This document shows, in pieces, positions 834-8,874 of a stretch of DNA of 8,874 nt. How positions within the stretch are numbered: position 1 is the first letter of the stretch; each line of letters starts with the position of its first letter. The stretch comes from a bacterium (GTDB lineage Bacteria; T1Sed10-126), in NCBI GenBank assembly GCA_003557545.1, contig PWOD01000053.1, positions 1-8,874 of the forward strand. Direction: 5' to 3'. Below the pieces are notes generated by a model. That model was not told the origin of the DNA, did no database searches, and saw only the letters and a program-made list of their open reading frames with translations. The position numbers and the translations under genes were made by a program.

Positions 834-1337
834 TTATTCAAAAATTATCTTCCAGTATCCCTCTTTTCTTTCCCCCACACGTTTTAAAATACCCTCTTTT
901 TTTAGATTTTTAATATTTTTCTGGATCGCCCGGTTACTGATACCTATTTCTTCAGCAAGATGTGAAATCGTAACCTCACTATCCTGATCAATTAAAACCA
1001 GAATTTTTTTAGCACTGTCTCCAAACCTTCCCTGAACCTTTTCCCAACCTTCCCCGCCATTCTGGTCATCCTTTATCAATTTCAGCGGAAAAATGGTTTC
1101 AAACAGATCTCCATCAATAAATTTCAGACTTTTTCCTGTGGTGTAAACCCGGCAATATTTAAAGCTGTTACGGACGCCGAAACCTGGTTCATCCGCACGC
1201 CCAATTTACTTAAAAAATCTGACAATGACGGGATTCTTGGGATAGGGAGAAAAGTTTTCCGGATCGATCTCCTCCGCGATACGGGGACGGTTGGCGTTTT
1301 CAGTACCCAGGTCAACGGTCAAGAATCGAGGGAAAAT
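834..1337 (-). pseudogene. C-terminal remnant of AlbA_2/RecG-like ATP-binding regulator
   Basis: Reading the minus strand in one frame from the TGA at 1338-1340 down to the TAA at 834-836 gives a continuous family-like sequence broken once, by TAA at 1206-1208. Upstream of the break it reads ENANRPRI, then IDPENFSPYPKNPVI and RFFK. Downstream it reads IGRADEPGFGVRNSFKYC, then a spacer with FIDGDLF and IFPL, and finally a winged helix with LAEEIGISNRAIQKNIKNL. From memory of the family, this order (NRP, NFSPFPKNP, GRADELGSGVRN, EGD.F..IIPL, HTH) is typical of the C-terminal half of AlbA_2-domain, RecG-related ATP-binding transcriptional regulators. Homologues usually carry E where the stop sits (FFKEIGRADE), so one GAA-to-TAA change would explain it. 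The N-terminal AlbA_2 and ATPase parts are missing or scrambled beyond 1338. The downstream winged helix alone (81 codons, TTG start at 1079) could still be expressed, but no good ribosome site precedes it. Confidence 0.75.
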
Positions 1338-1512: not shown

Positions 1513-1728
1513 TCACTTTAATTCATAGAACGCTGTTGGATCCGTCTGGGATTCAGCCACTTTTCTTATGATTTTTTCTTCAACTAACTTCTTTAATTTT
1601 TTACTTGCCGTCATCTTGGACTTCCCAGTGAGTTCCTGAGTTTCCTTAAACTATAGCCCAGCATAAACTCGGTCCTTTCCCATGACTAACATGAGTTTAC
1701 CTAAATAAATTATCCTACCGTGATAAGC
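1513..1728 (-). pseudogene. Decayed winged-helix protein fragment
   Basis: The minus strand is open from after the TAG at 1729-1731 to the TGA at 1513-1515, apart from one TAG at 1651-1653. Before the internal stop it reads GKLMLVMGKDRVYAGL. After it comes FKETQELTGKSKMTASKKL, then a stretch with LVEEKIIRKVA, ending DPTAFYELK. This has the helix-turn-helix-wing shape of the DNA-binding tail found on Fic- and AlbA_2/RecG-like regulators (ELTG.S..TAS..L..LVEE.II..V). The length (~70 codons), lack of an N-terminus and internal stop suggest a relic rather than a working gene. An ATG at 1617 (start of MTASKKL) would give only 34 residues. The parent family cannot be fixed from this piece. Confidence 0.5.
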
Positions 1729-1799: not shown

Positions 1800-3641
1800 C
1801 TAAAAAAGTCTATCGAGGTGCTTTATTTTAATTCTCTCAAAATCTGGGCCCTCTTCAACAAATTTTTTCAAATTTTCAGGTTTGTGACAATCATTCAAAA
1901 TCTTAACAAAATAATGAGGGGGTAGATCCAACTCCGTCATTTCATACCAGCATGCAGATACTTCCTTAAACTTTTCTTCAATATGTTTAGCATACCGATA
2001 TAAACCGCGTTTTTTCACCTCTTCAATTCCCTCCTTCGCATACAAATCAAACACTTCTCCAAAAGGAACACCCAGTCCAACCCCAGGATCTATATCCTCA
2101 CGAAACATTTCTGCCTCTATTTTAAATTGGCCAAATTTAATCAAGCCGTTCGCATAGGATAATCCTACATACTCACCATCTTCACTTTCACAATAATTTT
2201 TCAAATCTTTTAAAATACTAGTAGGAACTCTCGCCGTACCTCTCCACTTTCCCCGGGCTGGAACTATTTTCTCCATGCCTGGCAATCTAAAAAAACATTC
2301 ACCCCTTTTATAAGCAATAAACATCCAGGGCATTTTGGAAGGACAATAATAATTTTCAAAACCTAACAAACTTGCTTGTAAACAATCTTTTTGCATATAT
2401 AACTCAAAAGTTTTTTTCGTCCCGGCATCTGTCTTTATAATATTTTCAAGGCCTTTTTTTTGATAGGGCATTATATAAAAACTATAAAAATCTGTTTCCA
2501 ATTCACTAATTTTTATCAGGGAAATACCATCACTAAATTCAATACAAATATTTTTTGATTCTAAACTCTCTAATGCTTCCATTAGATATCTGCTATTCAT
2601 AACAATGGTTTTATTTGGTCCCGTAGTCGAACAGGTAATACTAGATCTTCCAATTACTTTTTTATCTTCAATAACCACCATTTTTAACTTGCTCTTTTCA
2701 ATTTCCATCCAAACTAAAGTTTTTTCATCACCAGCATGAGCATGTAAGCTTTTCAATAATGCTAAAAATTCAAAACAATTGATTTTACATTTAATTTTAA
2801 ATTGTTCTGGAATAACGGAATTCCAGAATAATCGATCTTTTTCCAAGGATGTCTGATAACTAATTCTATCCGTTTTTACAGTAAGATTTTTTATATAGCC
2901 AGCAGGACCTGGAAATAAATGTTGATTGAAGGAGTCATCGGAACCAATCATCCCAGTTCCATCACCTAAATCATCAAAATCAGGATATAAATAAATATCA
3001 CCAGATTCATGTTTGATAATCTCATTAATAAATTTTAACTCTGAGGATTTAATACAAAATTGAAATCTTTTCCTCAAACTCTGTTCAACTTCAAAATTAT
3101 AAACTCCAAAACGATGATTTGTCGCCGCACAAATAGTCGCAGAATCAGCAGAAAATTCTAAAAAAACATACGTCCAACAGCCAAATAAACAATTTAATTT
3201 TTCTTTTGCATGAAGCATTGTCTCTATATCTGCCAAAATATAATTTTGGTTTTCTTTGATTTTTTCCCCATCTGTCAAACACACAATTTTGTCCTCTACT
3301 TCAAATTTATATTTAAAGTTATTTTCCAACAGTAAAAGTTCTGCTTCACCAGGCTTATTTTGCTGAAATATCGGTTCGGCTTCTGAAGTTCCTAATACTG
3401 CAGCTATATTCTTCAGTATGGAAAAATCAAGACTGATTTTCCCCGGTTCCTGAATATCAGCATTCACTTTATATTCAAAATGATTCTTGAAAAATTTAGG
3501 ACAAAAAAATAAATCACCTCCATCAGTATACAAAGCAGCACGATCCAGTTCCCTGAAAATCCCCTTACCACTATTAAGATCTATTTTGCTCAGAACCTTT
3601 ACTCCATTTATAAATTCTTCACGGGTTGTTTTAAATTTCAA
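1800..3641 (-). CDS. Divergent DNA polymerase III beta (sliding clamp)-like protein with C-terminal extension
   Basis: A 613-residue protein whose first ~393 residues follow the beta-clamp layout. Domain 1 (1-125) starts MKFKTTREEFINGVKVLSK and has a GKISLDFSILKNI strand-helix. Domain 2 (~133-265) carries ICAATNHRFGVY at 170-181, the counterpart of the clamp ATDGHRLA motif. Domain 3 (~285-393) holds MNSRYLMEALESLESKNI (348-365) and ends FYIMPYQ, where normal clamps end near IMPMRL. Clamps encircle DNA and tether polymerases and repair enzymes. Usual length is ~365-380, so ~220 residues are extra. Residues ~408-512 have strand-helix-strand texture (RGTARVPTSILKDLKNY, then LIKFGQFKIEAE) resembling a fourth clamp domain. 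The last ~100 are charged and mostly helical, with no family I recognise. Start is TTG at 3639-3641 with a strong GAGGGGGG site (3648-3655) 6 nt away. The gene is more A+T-rich than its right-hand neighbours, suggesting transfer. The clamp assignment is by motif reading. Confidence 0.75.
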   Translation of the reverse strand: MKFKTTREEFINGVKVLSKIDLNSGKGIFRELDRAALYTDGGDLFFCPKFFKNHFEYKVNADIQEPGKISLDFSILKNIAAVLGTSEAEPIFQQNKPGEAELLLLENNFKYKFEVEDKIVCLTDGEKIKENQNYILADIETMLHAKEKLNCLFGCWTYVFLEFSADSATICAATNHRFGVYNFEVEQSLRKRFQFCIKSSELKFINEIIKHESGDIYLYPDFDDLGDGTGMIGSDDSFNQHLFPGPAGYIKNLTVKTDRISYQTSLEKDRLFWNSVIPEQFKIKCKINCFEFLALLKSLHAHAGDEKTLVWMEIEKSKLKMVVIEDKKVIGRSSITCSTTGPNKTIVMNSRYLMEALESLESKNICIEFSDGISLIKISELETDFYSFYIMPYQKKGLENIIKTDAGTKKTFELYMQKDCLQASLLGFENYYCPSKMPWMFIAYKRGECFFRLPGMEKIVPARGKWRGTARVPTSILKDLKNYCESEDGEYVGLSYANGLIKFGQFKIEAEMFREDIDPGVGLGVPFGEVFDLYAKEGIEEVKKRGLYRYAKHIEEKFKEVSACWYEMTELDLPPHYFVKILNDCHKPENLKKFVEEGPDFERIKIKHLDRLF

Positions 3642-3647
3642 AATATA

Positions 3648-3655
3648 CCCCCCTC
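3648..3655 (-). promoter_or_regulatory. Shine-Dalgarno of clamp-like gene
   Basis: GAGGGGGG on the minus strand, 6 nt before the TTG at 3641. It fixes the non-ATG start, which is also where clamp homology begins (MKFK). Confidence 0.7.
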
Positions 3656-3691: not shown

Positions 3692-4843
3692 TCAATCAAC
3701 GATAGCCTCCCCAGCCCGGGCTGCTTTAATGAGCTGGCGGGCTTCCTCGCCGGCCAGCTGCCAGCTTAAACAACGAAGATTTCCTCCAAACGAACAGACT
3801 GCCTCAGCGTTAACAGTCACAACCTGTTTTTCCGTATGATTTTTGACTGTTTTCAGAAAAACTTCATCGGTCGGATGACCAAAAACAGGAACGTAAATAA
3901 ATCGCTCCGTTGTGACTGAGTTGACATTCAAACCACAGGCAGAACCAAAACCATCCCTGGTTTCAGGCGAAAACTCCGCCGCCACCTCCACTAACTCAAT
4001 TCCGGGCAGCCCACTTTTCAGAGCCGCTCTAACTCTGCTTCTAAAAGGTTCATCATACTGATTTATAAACAAAGTTTCCGGTGAAACCCACATCACCATT
4101 CCATCAGCATGTCCGGTAATATCCCCTTCCTCTTCAGGTATGATGGCCAGACCGGTCAAGCCGAGCAGCTGTTTTAAAGCGGCCCGCGCATCCTCGGAAG
4201 ACAATCCCGGATTGTCTGTTAAAAACCGCGTGGTAACCACAGCCTTACCCCGCCCATTTTCCACCATGTTTCCACCATCAAGAACTAAGTCAGAATGCTT
4301 AAATTCAAGCCCGTAAAGCTGCACAAATCTATCGAAACTATCCCTGATATAAGACGCATCAGAGGGCTTCAAATACTCGGGTTGATAAGCAAATCGAACA
4401 GTTTTTTCAGCCACCACCGGGGCAAAATCTCGAATCCAAATGTCAGCCAGGTCAGCCGGTAAAAGCAGCTCTTCCGGAACTCTATGCCTCAGTCTACTGT
4501 AAGCCTCTCGATCAACTAATATCAACAGATTATCACGGCCAACAACAGCCGAAGCAAATCTCACTTGAAAATCCAGTATCTCTTCATAATCGCTTTGATA
4601 ATACGGATCATGAGCGCCGGGTGCGACCAGCACAATCAACTGGCGATCCTCATCAAGCTTGTTAAAGTAACCATCAGTTTCAGGATCAATCACTGCTCTA
4701 TTAGTAGCCCGAGCCATTCCTCCCATCATCAGTAACAACAGTATTATTAGTAAACTAACTTTACCGAACATTTGAACCGCTCGGTTGGAGAGAATAGATT
4801 TTTCCAATAAATCTGAGCCACAAGAACAGCTACTGACTAACAT
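3692..4843 (-). CDS. Exported agmatine deiminase / peptidylarginine deiminase (PAD_porph) family protein
   Basis: The 383-residue product has the guanidine-modifying motifs of the Porphyromonas-type PAD/agmatine deiminase family: WIRDFAPV (136-143), LDGGN (188-192), GHADGMV (244-250, with the His and Asp that handle the guanidinium) and a catalytic Cys at 358 in GGNLRCLSWQ. Family members hydrolyse agmatine to N-carbamoylputrescine or protein arginine to citrulline, releasing ammonia. Agmatine deiminases are normally cytosolic, but this one has a hydrophobic segment at ~29-42 followed by GGMARA, a good signal peptidase I site, so it is probably secreted or wall-side. The first 24 residues (including CSC) precede the signal. 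A start at Met25 (4771) would give a cleaner signal peptide, but neither start has a strong ribosome site; the upstream one has only GGGG. The gene lies 50 bp upstream of the clamp-like gene and 66 bp below msrA. The substrate cannot be told from sequence. Confidence 0.85.
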   Translation of the reverse strand: MLVSSCSCGSDLLEKSILSNRAVQMFGKVSLLIILLLLMMGGMARATNRAVIDPETDGYFNKLDEDRQLIVLVAPGAHDPYYQSDYEEILDFQVRFASAVVGRDNLLILVDREAYSRLRHRVPEELLLPADLADIWIRDFAPVVAEKTVRFAYQPEYLKPSDASYIRDSFDRFVQLYGLEFKHSDLVLDGGNMVENGRGKAVVTTRFLTDNPGLSSEDARAALKQLLGLTGLAIIPEEEGDITGHADGMVMWVSPETLFINQYDEPFRSRVRAALKSGLPGIELVEVAAEFSPETRDGFGSACGLNVNSVTTERFIYVPVFGHPTDEVFLKTVKNHTEKQVVTVNAEAVCSFGGNLRCLSWQLAGEEARQLIKAARAGEAIVD

Positions 4844-4909
4844 AAAAAGCCCCGTTTAATAAGTTTTTCACAGAAGATTAATATTTTAATGCATGCCTAA
4901 ACTTTTCTA

Positions 4910-5443
4910 TTATTCATCAAACAACTTCTCATACTTATCTAATTTAGGTTTTATCACTGAAACACAGTACGGCTGATCAGGATGTTTTTTGTAATAATCC
5001 TGATGAACTTCTTCGGCTGGATAAAACGCTTCAAATGGTTTCAACTCGGTAACTATTTCTGCATCATAAACAACATCCTCATTCAACCGAGAAATCATCT
5101 CCCCGGCAATCCTACGCTGGGTTTCATTATGGTAAAAAATAACCGACCGGTACTGCGTTCCGATATCGGCTCCCTGGCGATTAAGTTGCGTCGGGTCATG
5201 CGCAGCGAAGAAGCGTTTAAGAATCTCCCTGTAACTTATAGCCTCCGGATCAAAACTCAACTGGATTACTTCAGCATGACCGGTTTTTCCACTGCAAACC
5301 TGCTTATAAGTTGGATTTTCAACATCTCCTCCACTGTATCCGGAAATAACCTCAACCACCGGTTCAACCCGCTGAAAGACCGCTTCCAGACACCAGAAAC
5401 AACCGCCGCCTATCGTCGCCTTTTCCAGATTTGATTGCGTCAT
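4910..5443 (-). CDS. msrA: Peptide-methionine (S)-S-oxide reductase MsrA
   Basis: A 177-residue cytosolic enzyme that reduces the S-epimer of methionine sulfoxide in proteins or free, using thioredoxin. The signature GGGCFWC lies at 12-18, with catalytic Cys15. It is followed by SGYSGG, GHAEVIQLSFDP and the DPTQLNRQGADIGTQYRS block, and ends in the EEVHQDYYKKHPDQPYC region typical of the family. Length is normal. The frame is open upstream to 5644, but that part only overlaps msrB in another frame. I place the start at the ATG at 5441-5443, just before the conserved core. An AGGGGG site (5455-5460) overlapping the msrB stop codon precedes it by 11 nt, a little long. The 16-bp gap to msrB argues for one transcript and translational coupling, so both sulfoxide epimers would be repaired together. 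Confidence 0.95.
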   Translation of the reverse strand: MTQSNLEKATIGGGCFWCLEAVFQRVEPVVEVISGYSGGDVENPTYKQVCSGKTGHAEVIQLSFDPEAISYREILKRFFAAHDPTQLNRQGADIGTQYRSVIFYHNETQRRIAGEMISRLNEDVVYDAEIVTELKPFEAFYPAEEVHQDYYKKHPDQPYCVSVIKPKLDKYEKLFDE

Positions 5444-5459
5444 CGCCCGAACAACCCCC

Positions 5460-5876
5460 TTAGTTTTTGTCAGACTCTTCACGATCGAATTCAAGCGCAA
5501 CAGAATTAATACAGTATCGCTTACCTGTTGGTTTCGGACCGTCAGAAAAAACATGGCCCAAATGACCACCACAACGGGCGCATAATACCTCGGTTCGCGA
5601 TCTGGCCAATTTAGTATCAATCTGCTTGTTAATCGATTTTTCACTTAAAACATCAAAAAAACTGGGCCATCCACTCCCCGAATCAAATTTGTCTTCCGAT
5701 GAAAACAACTCCTTGCCACAACCGGCGCAACGATAAATCCCCCGACCCTTATGGTTATAGTATTTACCACTAAACGGCCGCTCAGTTCCAGCCTGACGCA
5801 AAACTCGGAACTGTTCCTCTGATAATTCTGTCCGCCATTCTTCTTCACTCTTTACAATCTTTTCATCAGCAGCCAA
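5460..5876 (-). CDS. msrB: Peptide-methionine (R)-S-oxide reductase MsrB
   Basis: A 138-residue enzyme reducing the R-epimer of protein methionine sulfoxide, the partner of MsrA. The structural zinc is held by two CxxC pairs, C50/C53 (YRCAGCG) and C99/C102 (LCARCGG). GSGWPSF (67-73) and GHLGHVFSDGP (104-114) are family hallmarks, and the catalytic Cys is C122 in KRYCINS. The start is TTG at 5874-5876. A stop codon lies a few codons upstream in frame, and a GGGAGG site (5887-5892) sits 10 nt away, so no ATG start is available without losing the N-terminal region. No promoter is obvious just upstream. A short hydrophobic open frame overlaps its start by 23-25 bases. Confidence 0.95.
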   Translation of the reverse strand: MAADEKIVKSEEEWRTELSEEQFRVLRQAGTERPFSGKYYNHKGRGIYRCAGCGKELFSSEDKFDSGSGWPSFFDVLSEKSINKQIDTKLARSRTEVLCARCGGHLGHVFSDGPKPTGKRYCINSVALEFDREESDKN

Positions 5877-6010
5877 AGATCATCATCCTCCCAAACCTCT
5901 GAGTCAGTTAGCCGACTAACCAGCAAAAATACTCCGGCAGTTATAAAAACCACTACCGCTATTATGTTGTTTTTTGAACTCTCACCTTCGCTTATTTTTC
6001 CAGTCCTGCT
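5852..6010 (-). CDS. Possible small single-span membrane protein (uncertain start)
   Basis: The minus strand is open for 52 codons between TGA at 6011-6013 and TAA at 5852-5854. It reads ISEGESSKNN, then the hydrophobic IIAVVVFITAGVFLLV, then SRLTDSEVWEDDDLWLLMKRL. The hydrophilic-membrane-acidic layout looks like a real small membrane protein, and the frame runs ~25 bases into msrB, as coupled genes do. However, no ATG, GTG or TTG precedes the membrane segment; the first is a GTG inside it (5951-5953). An ATG at 6010-6012 in another frame encodes MKQDWKNKRR before a stop at 5980-5982, so a one-base frameshift would join a charged start to this segment. It may be a recently frameshifted gene. 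I recognise no family. Confidence 0.3.
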   Translation of the reverse strand, partial: SRTGKISEGESSKNNIIAVVVFITAGVFLLVSRLTDSEVWEDDDLWLLMKRL

Positions 6011-6023
6011 TCATCCCAAACTT

Positions 6024-6362
6024 TTAAAAAGTCCCACCATTCCAACCCCACATAGCACCAGGAGAATCAGTAAATTCAATATAAACTCTGCTTTTTTCTA
6101 TGGCTAATTCATTTTCTATAAAATCACAGATAAAATCAGACAGTTCAGCGGTAGCGGCTCTGTCCAAACCAATGCTTTTAACCTCAACGAAAGCTGTTTT
6201 CGCGGAATTTCCAGCGAAACTCATCTGAATATCCGGCTGCAGAGCTGTCATAATATATGACTCAGGTTTTCCCAGCTTCTCCGCCATTGCCGCCGATAGT
6301 TTCTTCAAAAAATTCTCTTCAGTTGCCACCGTTTGATTTGTCTGAATCTTAATAAATGGCAT
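6024..6362 (-). CDS. MIF-like tautomerase (phenylpyruvate tautomerase family)
   Basis: A 112-residue member of the macrophage migration inhibitory factor branch of the tautomerase superfamily, which forms trimers and uses the N-terminal proline as general base. The protein begins MPFIKIQTN, so Pro is exposed once Met is removed. Family positions visible are EKLGKPESYIM (29-39, with the active-site Lys), FVEVKSIG (58-65), SRVYIEFTD (91-99) and GWNGGTF at the end. Mammalian MIF has Asn where this has Glu in VYIEF, and its CxxC motif is absent. The start is decided by a GGGAG site (6371-6375) 8 nt before the ATG at 6360-6362. An in-frame GTG three codons upstream overlaps that site and would bury the catalytic proline. 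The physiological substrate is unknown. The gene appears to be transcribed from its own promoter. Confidence 0.9.
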   Translation of the reverse strand: MPFIKIQTNQTVATEENFLKKLSAAMAEKLGKPESYIMTALQPDIQMSFAGNSAKTAFVEVKSIGLDRAATAELSDFICDFIENELAIEKSRVYIEFTDSPGAMWGWNGGTF

Positions 6363-6370
6363 CAGAATCA

Positions 6371-6375
6371 CTCCC
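6371..6375 (-). promoter_or_regulatory. Shine-Dalgarno deciding the tautomerase start
   Basis: GGGAG, 8 nt before ATG 6362. It overlaps the alternative GTG at 6369-6371, ruling that start out and leaving Pro as residue 2. Confidence 0.7.
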
Positions 6376-6437
6376 TTTTAATATATTTAACCGTTTCTAT
6401 AAAATTCAGATTATTCGCCTGACTTCCCTATTTTTTG

Positions 6438-6446
6438 ATTATAACA
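6438..6446 (-). promoter_or_regulatory. Extended -10 promoter for the tautomerase gene
   Basis: On the minus strand this reads TGTTATAAT, a perfect TATAAT with the TGn extension, about 75 bases before the tautomerase start. No good -35 is present at 16-18 bp, which extended -10 promoters can tolerate. The 188-base gap to the upstream gene leaves room for independent transcription. Confidence 0.5.
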
Positions 6447-6559
6447 TTTACCTTCAAAACAGCAGCATCCTGTTCAATTTTTTTCATGCTTACAGCAAAA
6501 TAATCAACATATCAAACAGCCAGAAGTTTTAATTGTAAAACATAACTGACCTTCGCCGG

Positions 6560-7684
6560 CTAAATTATCTCGGAAGCTGCTTTTTTCAACCGATTCATAA
6601 CCGCCAGCCCTTCTTTTTCATAACCTATACCTTCGACAACAATCACCTCAGACCCTTTATTGTCGAGAGCCCGTAAGGAAGCAAATAACTCCCTGGCCAC
6701 CAACTTCGAATCATGTTCGCGTGAATCCAGCTTACCCGCTGGAGTAAGATCAACCACGGAAGTTCGGCTATCCTGTTTTATTTCCTCCGGCAGTTCAATC
6801 TTCCCGCTGGTATGTATCCAACCGACCCGCTTCTCTTTTTGATGATATTTCTCCCAGATTTTTGTTAAATAACCAGCTGTTCTGGCCATTGGTTTTTCGA
6901 TCAAAATCAAATAGGCTTTTGGCGAATAATGTTTATATTTCAAACCCGGCGTGGTCGGGCGCTCAATTAATTCTCCGGGCAAATTGTCATCATTTTTTGA
7001 CCCCCTCTCGACGAGCTCAAGCTGCGGAATCAACTGCTGGAGTTCCTCATAATTTAACCCTCCTGGACGCAGCAGCACGGGAGGGTCTCGATCTAAATCA
7101 ATCACCGTTGATTCAACTCCCAACTCCGACTTGCCACCATCGATGATCAACGGAATTTTCCCCTTTAGATCATGATAAACATGCTCAGCAGTCGTCGGAC
7201 TTGGCCGGCCAGAAAGATTGGCACTCGGAGCAGCCACTGGAGCACCGGCAAGCTCAATCAATTTGCGGGCCACCTGATGCGACGGCATTCGCACCGCCAC
7301 TGTAGACAGACCCGCAGTTACTATTTCAGGAACCAGGGGGGATTTTTTAAAAAGAACAGTTAGAGGACCGGGCCAGAATTTACGACAGAGTTTTTCAGCC
7401 CCACGGGGTAGCTCTAACACCAACTCGTCAAGCATCTGAAAATCAGAAATATGAACAATTAATGGATTGTCCGGGGGACGATTTTTAGCCTCAAAGATTT
7501 TTCCGATCGCTTCCGGCCGGGTTATCAAACCTCCCAGCCCATAAACCGTTTCAGTCGGAAACCCGACTACTTCTCCAGATCTTAAAAGTTCAACAGCCGG
7601 GATGAATTGATTATCACCCAGCTGTTGTCGATCTATTTTAATAGTTTGTGTTTTAAAGGAATCAGCTTTTCTACTCATCAGCAT
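6560..7684 (-). CDS. ywlC: L-threonylcarbamoyladenylate synthase, Sua5/YwlC type
   Basis: Makes threonylcarbamoyl-AMP from threonine, bicarbonate and ATP, the first step of t6A formation at position 37 of ANN-decoding tRNAs; the product is used by TsaD with TsaB and TsaE. The YrdC domain spans ~23-210: GFPTETVYGLGG (41-52), KNRPPDNPL (67-75), FWPGPLT (103-109), APSANLSGRPSPTT (152-165), ESTVIDL (191-197) and LRPGG (205-209). The linker TPGLKYKHYSP (245-255) leads into the C-terminal Sua5 domain (~257-374) that closes over the active site. The length of 374 is slightly above the usual ~340-350 of the long type, partly because of an insert around 226-242. The start is ATG at 7682-7684 (MLMSRK); Met3 is an alternative, and neither has a clear ribosome site. 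A good promoter lies 50 bases upstream. Confidence 0.95.
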   Translation of the reverse strand: MLMSRKADSFKTQTIKIDRQQLGDNQFIPAVELLRSGEVVGFPTETVYGLGGLITRPEAIGKIFEAKNRPPDNPLIVHISDFQMLDELVLELPRGAEKLCRKFWPGPLTVLFKKSPLVPEIVTAGLSTVAVRMPSHQVARKLIELAGAPVAAPSANLSGRPSPTTAEHVYHDLKGKIPLIIDGGKSELGVESTVIDLDRDPPVLLRPGGLNYEELQQLIPQLELVERGSKNDDNLPGELIERPTTPGLKYKHYSPKAYLILIEKPMARTAGYLTKIWEKYHQKEKRVGWIHTSGKIELPEEIKQDSRTSVVDLTPAGKLDSREHDSKLVARELFASLRALDNKGSEVIVVEGIGYEKEGLAVMNRLKKAASEII

Positions 7685-7734
7685 TCACTATATTTTAGGC
7701 CAGTTATTCCGGCAAAGATCAGTCGAACTCGCTT

Positions 7735-7763
7735 ATTATATACCGCGAATCAGTTTATAACAA
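7735..7763 (-). promoter_or_regulatory. Sigma-A-type promoter of ywlC
   Basis: On the minus strand, TTGTTA (7758-7763), a 17-bp spacer and TATAAT (7735-7740). The -10 is perfect and the -35 matches at four of six positions. It lies about 50 bases before the ywlC ATG, so ywlC need not depend on the gene to its right. Confidence 0.65.
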
Positions 7764-7899
7764 ATCACGCACATGCCAGCAATCTTGAACTATAACTTGT
7801 ATTTACCTCAGATGAAGAGTTTTCCGACTAAACCAACCCGGAAACAATCAACTGCAAACCAGAGCTGCTTTACACACACAACAACTTAACTCTGCAAAC

Positions 7900-8403
7900 T
7901 CAAAGACAAAGATTATTTTCTGTCACACCACGCCGACAGTGATGACGATTTTCAACCGACTTAATTCGATAAAGTTTATCCCCTTCGTCAATTATTATTC
8001 GATAATCTGCCCCGGCGACACTGTCATCCTTAAATCCCCACAGTTGAATTAAATATTCTATCAGGTTAGTTTCCAGCTGCCGGTAAGCTGTCCGATGAAA
8101 ATGATTTTCTGTGATCCCCGGCTGAGTCTCTCTTAATTTACTGTCTATTTCCTCCAGAGACCGAACATCCGCTCCAATCAAACCTTCAATTTCAACTGAA
8201 CTCCAGCTTGTACTGCCCGGTTCCCAGTCAACATCCGGTGGTATTTGCTTCTGCAACGAGTTCAACGGCTGATTAAGATAAAACTCCTCATCCGAAATAT
8301 AACTCTCCTCCCCCACGTGGTAGAAGAATCTAACTGCACCACCGATTACTAAAAAAAATACCAATACAACACCCACCAACAAAAAACTATTTCGTAAAAC
8401 CAT
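7900..8403 (-). CDS. Membrane-anchored protein of unknown function
   Basis: A 167-residue protein I do not recognise. It starts with a short basic-hydrophobic stretch (about residues 5-27: NSFLLVGVVLVFFLVIGGAV) that is either an uncleaved N-terminal anchor or a signal peptide without a clear cleavage site, so the remaining ~140 residues probably lie outside the membrane. That part is acidic and polar, with two possible helices (SLEEIDSKLRE and QLETNLIEYLIQLWG) and a later strand-rich YRIIIDEGDKLYRIKSV. There are Cys and His residues near the C-terminus (HHCRRG, LCL) but no known motif. Two ATGs are adjacent. I take the second, which has GAAAGGG (8410-8416) at 6 nt, over the first at only 3 nt. 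It lies 100 bp below the receiver gene, so the two could be cotranscribed, but nothing here ties it to signalling. Confidence 0.7.
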   Translation of the reverse strand: MVLRNSFLLVGVVLVFFLVIGGAVRFFYHVGEESYISDEEFYLNQPLNSLQKQIPPDVDWEPGSTSWSSVEIEGLIGADVRSLEEIDSKLRETQPGITENHFHRTAYRQLETNLIEYLIQLWGFKDDSVAGADYRIIIDEGDKLYRIKSVENRHHCRRGVTENNLCL

Positions 8404-8472
8404 CATTATCCCTTTCTATTACCCTAAAAAATCCCTCCGCCCGTATAAACCTCATTCTCGCCATAATCAAAC

Positions 8473-8508
8473 CGGAAACGTAAAACGTAGTGTCTGACCC
8501 CGGATTTT
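8473..8508. repeat. Possible REP/RAYT-associated repeat motif
   Basis: The plus strand contains ACGTAGTGTCTGACCCCGG (8485-8503), bracketed by CCGG at 8472-8475 and 8500-8503. It overlaps the end of the receiver gene. From memory, GTAGTGTCTGACCCC-type motifs recur in many genomes beside IS200-like/RAYT transposases. Only one copy is present in this window, so the repeat nature is not shown here. Confidence 0.35.
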
Positions 8509-8874
8509 AGTTGGATATGTATTTTTTGATAGTTTCGATTAATTCTTGTTTTCTTATCGGTTTGGCAAGATGGTCGTCGCAACCACAGTCGACTGCCTTT
8601 TGCCGAGCAGTTTCCATGGCGTGAGCGGTCAGGGCCATTATATACTGATGATCTTTCCTGTTCTCCTGCTCCCACTGACGATAACGGCGAGTCGCTTCAT
8701 AACCGTCCAGATTCGGCATCTCGAGGTCCATAAGCACCAGATCATATCTCTTTTGTTTCATCTTTTCTAACCCCTCAACCCCATCTGCTGCCTCATCTAT
8801 CTCTATATCTTCTTCGCCCAGGTAGGCGGTAACCACAAGCCGGTTGTTGGCATTATCCTCAACCAGCAGCACAC
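8507..8874 (-). CDS. Response-regulator receiver domain, partial (window edge)
   Basis: This is the C-terminal part of a longer minus-strand gene entering from beyond 8874. The 121 codons seen form one CheY-like receiver. LLVEDNANN holds the acidic pair (E5, D6), LVLMDLEMPNLDGYEATR holds the phospho-acceptor D49, LTAHAM holds the switch Thr (T82), and LAKPIRKQEL holds the conserved Lys (K104). It ends right after the last helix (ELIETIKKYISN), with no output domain. The wording LLVEDN.NNR, MDLEMP..DGYEATR and ALTAHAM..D/T fits receivers fused to the C-terminus of hybrid sensor histidine kinases better than stand-alone regulators, so I infer a hybrid kinase. The GTG at 8870-8872 corresponds to a Val of the first beta strand and is not proposed as a start. 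Confidence 0.9.
   Translation of the reverse strand, partial: VLLVEDNANNRLVVTAYLGEEDIEIDEAADGVEGLEKMKQKRYDLVLMDLEMPNLDGYEATRRYRQWEQENRKDHQYIMALTAHAMETARQKAVDCGCDDHLAKPIRKQELIETIKKYISN

Follow-up and report, generated by a model that had tools for sequence, protein, structure and literature searches.

The clamp gene and its setting

The window analysed here, one entire contig of 8,874 bases, belongs to a metagenome-assembled genome (2.15 Mb in 239 contigs) of a bacterium from a little-known phylum. It contains a real open reading frame of 613 codons on the minus strand (3641..1800), with a TTG start codon at 3641, a stop codon at 1800-1802 and a ribosome-binding site 6 nt before the start. The features of the gene and of its product, a sliding clamp protein with a long C-terminal extension, are listed below; the standalone proteins named in the list are one-domain relatives of this extension.

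3648..3655, minus strand: ribosome-binding site GAGGGGGG, read from the sequence
1800..3641, minus strand: whole coding sequence, 613 aa, TTG start, from the listing of open reading frames
3267..3641, minus strand: clamp domain 1, residues 1-125 (hhalign of residues 1-130 with the clamp domain-1 profile, probability 88; AF2 pLDDT mostly 80-95)
2856..3266, minus strand: clamp domain 2, residues ~126-262; an insertion near 226-244 is poorly modelled (alignment and AF2; weak when taken alone, hhalign probability 20)
2460..2855, minus strand: clamp domain 3, residues ~263-394, with an altered ring-closing face at A301, H302, K327 and S333 (PF02768, E 3.1e-11; hhalign probability 99; residue mapping)
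2424..2459, minus strand: linker, residues 395-406, as judged from the ends of the flanking domains
2091..2423, minus strand: fourth clamp domain, by homology, of the domain-1 type, residues ~407-517 (profile of the standalone family, 23 bits on residues 441-549; family homologous to clamp domain 1)
1803..2090, minus strand: helical tail, residues 518-613 (alignment with standalone proteins; AF2 helices at 527-569, pLDDT ~75-81 over 531-560)

The two sides of the gene differ. The upstream region (3692-8874) is densely packed with ordinary chromosomal genes, beginning with an agmatine-deiminase-like gene (PF04371) 50 bases upstream of the clamp gene on the same strand; other upstream minus-strand frames we take to be MsrA/MsrB, tautomerase and Sua5-type genes. 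The downstream region (1-1799) is gene-poor and holds only decayed remnants. The gene-poor setting with decayed genes described in the initial annotation therefore applies to the downstream part but not to the upstream one, and apart from the clamp gene the window yielded no mobile or defence genes but only decayed winged-helix (wHTH) remnants. One of these (834-1204, minus strand) is what remains of the C-terminal part of a protein with a final winged helix (HTH_11), of which only the helix part matched Pfam; the read-through residues before it, GFGVRNSFKYCRVYTTGKSLKFIDGDLFETIFPL, presumably correspond to the end of an AlbA_2/ATP-binding (COG2865-like) protein. Another (1530-1690, minus strand), FKETQELTGKSKMTASKKLKKLVEEKIIRKV, resembles the end of a further wHTH protein and has no Pfam match. 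Finally, a ~31-bp element, GTTTGAACAATTGTTCAAACCTTCAA, is present at 496-698 in three palindromic copies spaced 85-87 bp apart; as related copies occur on contig C120 of the same genome, the element is either a dispersed repeat or a regulator-binding site.

The clamp core and its interaction surfaces

Residues 1-395 form a complete three-domain beta clamp fold, in agreement with the initial annotation of residues 1-393. PF02768 matches residues 275-393 (E 3.1e-11), three consecutive clamp domains are recognised in residues 1-396 by hhalign against a profile of 22 cellular clamps (probability 99.7), and the AF2 model, computed with 57 viral clamps as the alignment, is confident over residues 1-395 except for a few loops. 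VIA-align places this model on a bacterial clamp with Z 33.5 over residues 1-397 (354 residues aligned). Likeness to DnaN (PF00712/PF02767/PF02768) is closest in domain 3, while domain 2 is the most diverged of the three; the core fold residues N349, Y352, M391 and P392 are kept.

On contig C31, the same genome has a separate canonical dnaN gene (380 aa), flanked by dnaA and recF, and the window protein is therefore a second clamp. The gene under study lies outside the dnaA-dnaN-recF operon, whose clamp position is occupied by a different gene, so the proposed status of an accessory clamp holds, and the suggested check for a canonical dnaN beside dnaA came out positive: the window clamp is not the only one in the genome.

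The 220 residues beyond the normal clamp end are likewise as unusual as had been supposed, since 79 of 80 clamps from viral contigs end no more than 6 residues past domain 3 and the longest tail, in the remaining one, is 39 aa. This bears on the possibility that the protein came into the genome as the processivity clamp of a phage or mobile element and persists beside decayed DNA. Many phages carry their own clamps, the phage beta clamps of PHROG 947 have the same overall fold and match domain 3 weakly, the DNA downstream is decayed, and the G+C content of the part encoding domains 1-3 (0.31) is low compared with that of the adjoining chromosomal genes (0.44). However, viral clamps stop after domain 3 and none of those examined carries the additional module; searches of phage and plasmid records and of viral contigs yielded no relative apart from the weak domain-3 matches, and no phage or plasmid genes, hallmark genes included, were recognised beside the clamp gene in the window. 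We consider such an origin quite unlikely.

To compare interaction surfaces, residues were mapped to E. coli DnaN in three alignment modes and set against 22 cellular clamps. On the domain-3 face of the dimer interface, all three modes give the same replacements (E. coli to window protein): I272 to A301, L273 to H302, E298 to K327 and E304 to S333. Nearly all of the 22 cellular clamps, the genome's own DnaN among them, have hydrophobic residues at 272/273 and acidic residues at 298/304. According to a 2024 review (PMC11139829), the conserved interface residues are I78, F106, I272 and L273 and, among the charged ones, only R103, E298 and E304; I272 and L273 hold the E. coli dimer together, and the double mutant I272A;L273A is a monomer unable to tether Pol III, with an about 50-fold tighter binding of the delta subunit. 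Thus, the conserved head-to-tail dimer interface is missing from domain 3. The domain-1 side fares better: I79 (I78 in E. coli) is kept and Y111 and K110 probably are, the register of the edge strand being uncertain by two residues. A charge swap of R103 to glutamate on domain 1, seen in one alignment, was dropped, as other alignments shift this strand by two residues.

The DNA-facing side and the partner-binding pocket are altered as well. Among the 22 columns that are mostly basic in viral clamps, 19 are not basic in the window protein and three are kept. In the inner channel, K198 corresponds to S200 and R269 to S298, and the positive charge typical of a replicative DnaN was not found there, with the reservation that single positions are uncertain at such low identity. 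In the pocket, H175 (H176), R176 (R177), M362 (M391) and P363 (P392) are kept, and four positions are changed (T172A, G174N, L177F and V360Y).

With the fold kept, the ring interface dismantled on one side and the DNA side and pocket altered, the protein is unlikely to be a replication clamp; by these aligned positions, it is a clamp in fold but not a replicative DnaN in its surfaces. The joint erosion of these hallmark surfaces, like the decay of the downstream DNA, might suggest that a clamp duplicate, joined accidentally to a clamp-like gene, is degenerating and has no present function. Yet the frame runs through 613 codons without a stop behind a good ribosome-binding site, and residues of the fold such as N349, Y352, M391 and P392 have been retained, so that we regard degeneration as very unlikely.

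The C-terminal module and its standalone relatives

When the extension was searched directly in Pfam, PHROGs, NCBIfam, PADLOC and PDB, no match was obtained, and the single extension sequence gave no hhalign signal with clamps; a family profile was needed as an intermediate. The family was discovered only through a weak genome match, which led to a 181-aa protein of a BRC1 bacterium and from it to a Microvirga protein and two proteins from one bacterial phylum. Its members, about 185 aa long, consist of one clamp-like half with a G-x-W-x-G strand followed by a helical tail. Four intact standalone genes or proteins were identified:

WP_173949816.1, Microvirga plasmid pR24_2: 185 aa, annotated as 'hypothetical protein'
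L059:6001-6543: standalone member
L153:9768-10316: standalone member
L154:9662-10234: standalone member

A fifth copy (L063; G083:C38:7915-8232) is broken by an in-frame TAG. An AF2 model of one standalone protein, computed without an alignment, had a pLDDT of 39 and was set aside.

The profile of the four standalone proteins, built with the window sequence excluded, matches the extension with 26.5 bits in hmmsearch (best of 2000 shuffles, 1.7), the match ending near residue 549, and hhalign of the extension with the family gives probabilities of 91-94. The alignment with the standalone proteins extends over residues ~407-600 and takes in the G-x-W-x-G strand as well as the first helices of the tail, at an identity of only ~14-17%. 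The first part of the tail aligns with the tails of the standalone proteins both by eye and in MAFFT, whereas the last ~30 residues are specific to the window protein; the tail searched alone gave no match. Hence, of the fourth domain and charged helical tail initially proposed, the helices are borne out, but the tail seems not to be independent: domain 4 and the tail appear to constitute one module, which occurs alone elsewhere and is fused here behind a complete clamp. At the C-terminus, HLDRLF is reminiscent of a clamp-binding motif, but a terminal stretch of six residues is too short to call one.

The family is in turn related to clamp domain 1. Its profile aligns with that domain in hhalign with a probability of 92 and a score of 43-44 (maximum 22 for 120 column-shuffled clamp profiles and 18 for reversed ones). 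Against 177,635 PDB sequences, the top 16 matches were all beta clamps, mostly aligned on domain 1, at E-values of 0.016-0.33 each; against 396 genomes, the profile found one canonical DnaN, in genome G714, over the whole of domain 1 (E 1.6e-6), and this gene sits in the dnaA-dnaN-recF position. Taken together, these profile comparisons indicate that domain 4 is homologous to clamp domains; the initial ~110 residues of the extension thus match the fourth clamp domain predicted earlier, via the standalone family. The architecture (complete clamp, fourth clamp domain, helical tail) is very probably as given above. In the AF2 model, whose alignment held no relatives of domain 4, this domain is poorly resolved (pLDDT below 50 over residues 463-525). 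A Foldseek search with the four-domain model returned BFVD entry A0A1C7A3Q1_1 from Haloarcula californiae icosahedral virus 1 (804 aa; 592 columns, rmsd 16.9), a protein in which clamp-like domains may be repeated.

So far, only one fused four-domain protein is known: no second one emerged from exact-peptide scans of viral and genome contigs or from tblastn against phages and plasmids. This, together with the small size of the contig (8,874 bases in an assembly of 239), would be expected if the fusion were an assembly artefact of the metagenome bin. Such an artefact is nevertheless extremely improbable: the reading frame crosses the junction without a stop, and the third-codon G+C contents on its two sides (0.22 and 0.30) do not differ significantly, as 113 of 500 shuffles reach the same difference. 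Searches of the open-access literature turned up neither a bacterial clamp subunit of four domains nor a family of one-domain clamps, which is weak evidence of absence; the ~185-aa family appears to be previously undescribed.

All four intact standalone genes adjoin genes for PADLOC-modelled proteins. Two are inside loci of Hma, in company with HmaA, HmaB, TmtA-like and GmrSD_N genes; Hma is among the candidate defence systems of PADLOC (PMC8565338) and has since been given the name DUF499-centred BREX-related (PMC12839542). The gene orders are:

G679: HmaA helicase, TmtA-like sacsin ATPase, clamp-like gene, 597-aa protein, GmrSD_N, HEPN, HmaB methylase
G424: HmaA, split TmtA-like gene, M78-like protein, GmrSD_N, clamp-like gene, HmaB, HTH protein, HmaC

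The 597-aa protein, encoded between the clamp-like and GmrSD_N genes (L153, 7958-9748, minus strand), has no Pfam or PADLOC match. For the other two standalone genes, the adjoining genes are defence candidates: the PADLOC candidate PDC-S41 is matched (E 1.9e-279) by the gene upstream of the BRC1 copy, and a DEDDh exonuclease with a PDC-S48 match is encoded next to the copy on the Microvirga plasmid. Clamps are not mentioned in the two Hma papers (PMC8565338, PMC12839542). The module was ruled out as a core Hma gene, since a clamp-like gene was absent from all 20 further regions examined around genes of the HmaB type. Moreover, no HmaB was found at E 1e-5 in the genome of the window (91.9% complete), which consequently lacks the combination of HmaA, HmaB and HmaC in one locus. 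The module is therefore an optional accessory at most, and the window protein is not an Hma component in its own genome.

Ring assembly and possible functions

The sliding clamps of cells and viruses are described as rings of six domains to which each subunit contributes two or three, and in the normal ring of three-domain subunits the contact is between domain 3 of one subunit and domain 1 of the other. The window protein probably does not form the standard two-subunit ring, because at the edge of its domain 3 both the paired hydrophobic residues and the acids by which canonical clamps are held together have been replaced. The different assembly initially envisaged for a four-domain subunit is thus likely, as far as can be judged from the replaced ring-closing residues (PMC11139829).

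We lean towards a clamp paralogue that may have been repurposed away from replication and act as an open or monomeric scaffold or decoy, an explanation to which, taken as a whole, we give close to an even chance. Under this explanation, domain 4 would probably sit on or near the edge of domain 3 in the same chain, as it comes immediately after domain 3 and is similar to domain 1, with which this edge normally pairs. That it actually caps domain 3 in cis is a more doubtful proposal: since domain 4 is poorly modelled, no contact between the two domains is predicted. Such a placement would leave a monomeric or open clamp, which could hold the clamp loader or clamp-binding proteins away from DNA. 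The likeliest purpose would be interference with foreign replication, because the free module sits in defence neighbourhoods. Two observations temper this scheme: some ring closure could still occur, as domain 1 keeps much of its interface side, and a decoy binding normal clamp motifs is made less plausible by the four changes in the pocket.

Alternatively, the two-subunit ring may still be formed around DNA; domain 4 and the tail would then be a tethered regulator or recruiter suspended from the C-terminal face, next to the cleft for partners. The clamp C-terminus sits beside the partner pocket, so a C-terminal extension could reach it, and both I79, Y111 and K110 of domain 1 and H176, R177, M391 and P392 of the pocket are kept. 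Against this, the domain-3 interface lacks both hydrophobic residues and the conserved acids, and most of the conserved basic clamp positions are lost; we think a tethered regulator unlikely.

Returning to the repurposed, non-replicative clamp, a role in defence is conceivable by analogy with the standalone relatives, but somewhat less than an even bet. The earlier idea of a mobile-element or defence clamp survives in its defence part, for which the evidence is circumstantial and comes from the loci of these relatives and not from the window locus, while nothing was found in favour of a phage origin. A more specific proposal is that one-domain clamp modules act in immunity as accessories of Hma (BREX-related) loci, and that the window protein is such a module fused to a full clamp with a rebuilt ring interface, binding the replication machinery without forming a standard ring. 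In this full form we rate the proposal as improbable, though worth stating.

How clamp rings are assembled, and how they arose in evolution from one repeated domain, can be examined with the four-domain subunit and the one-domain family. Should the one-domain proteins indeed act together with Hma loci, antiviral systems would have a new kind of component, clamps or clamp mimics, by which they could sense or block replication.
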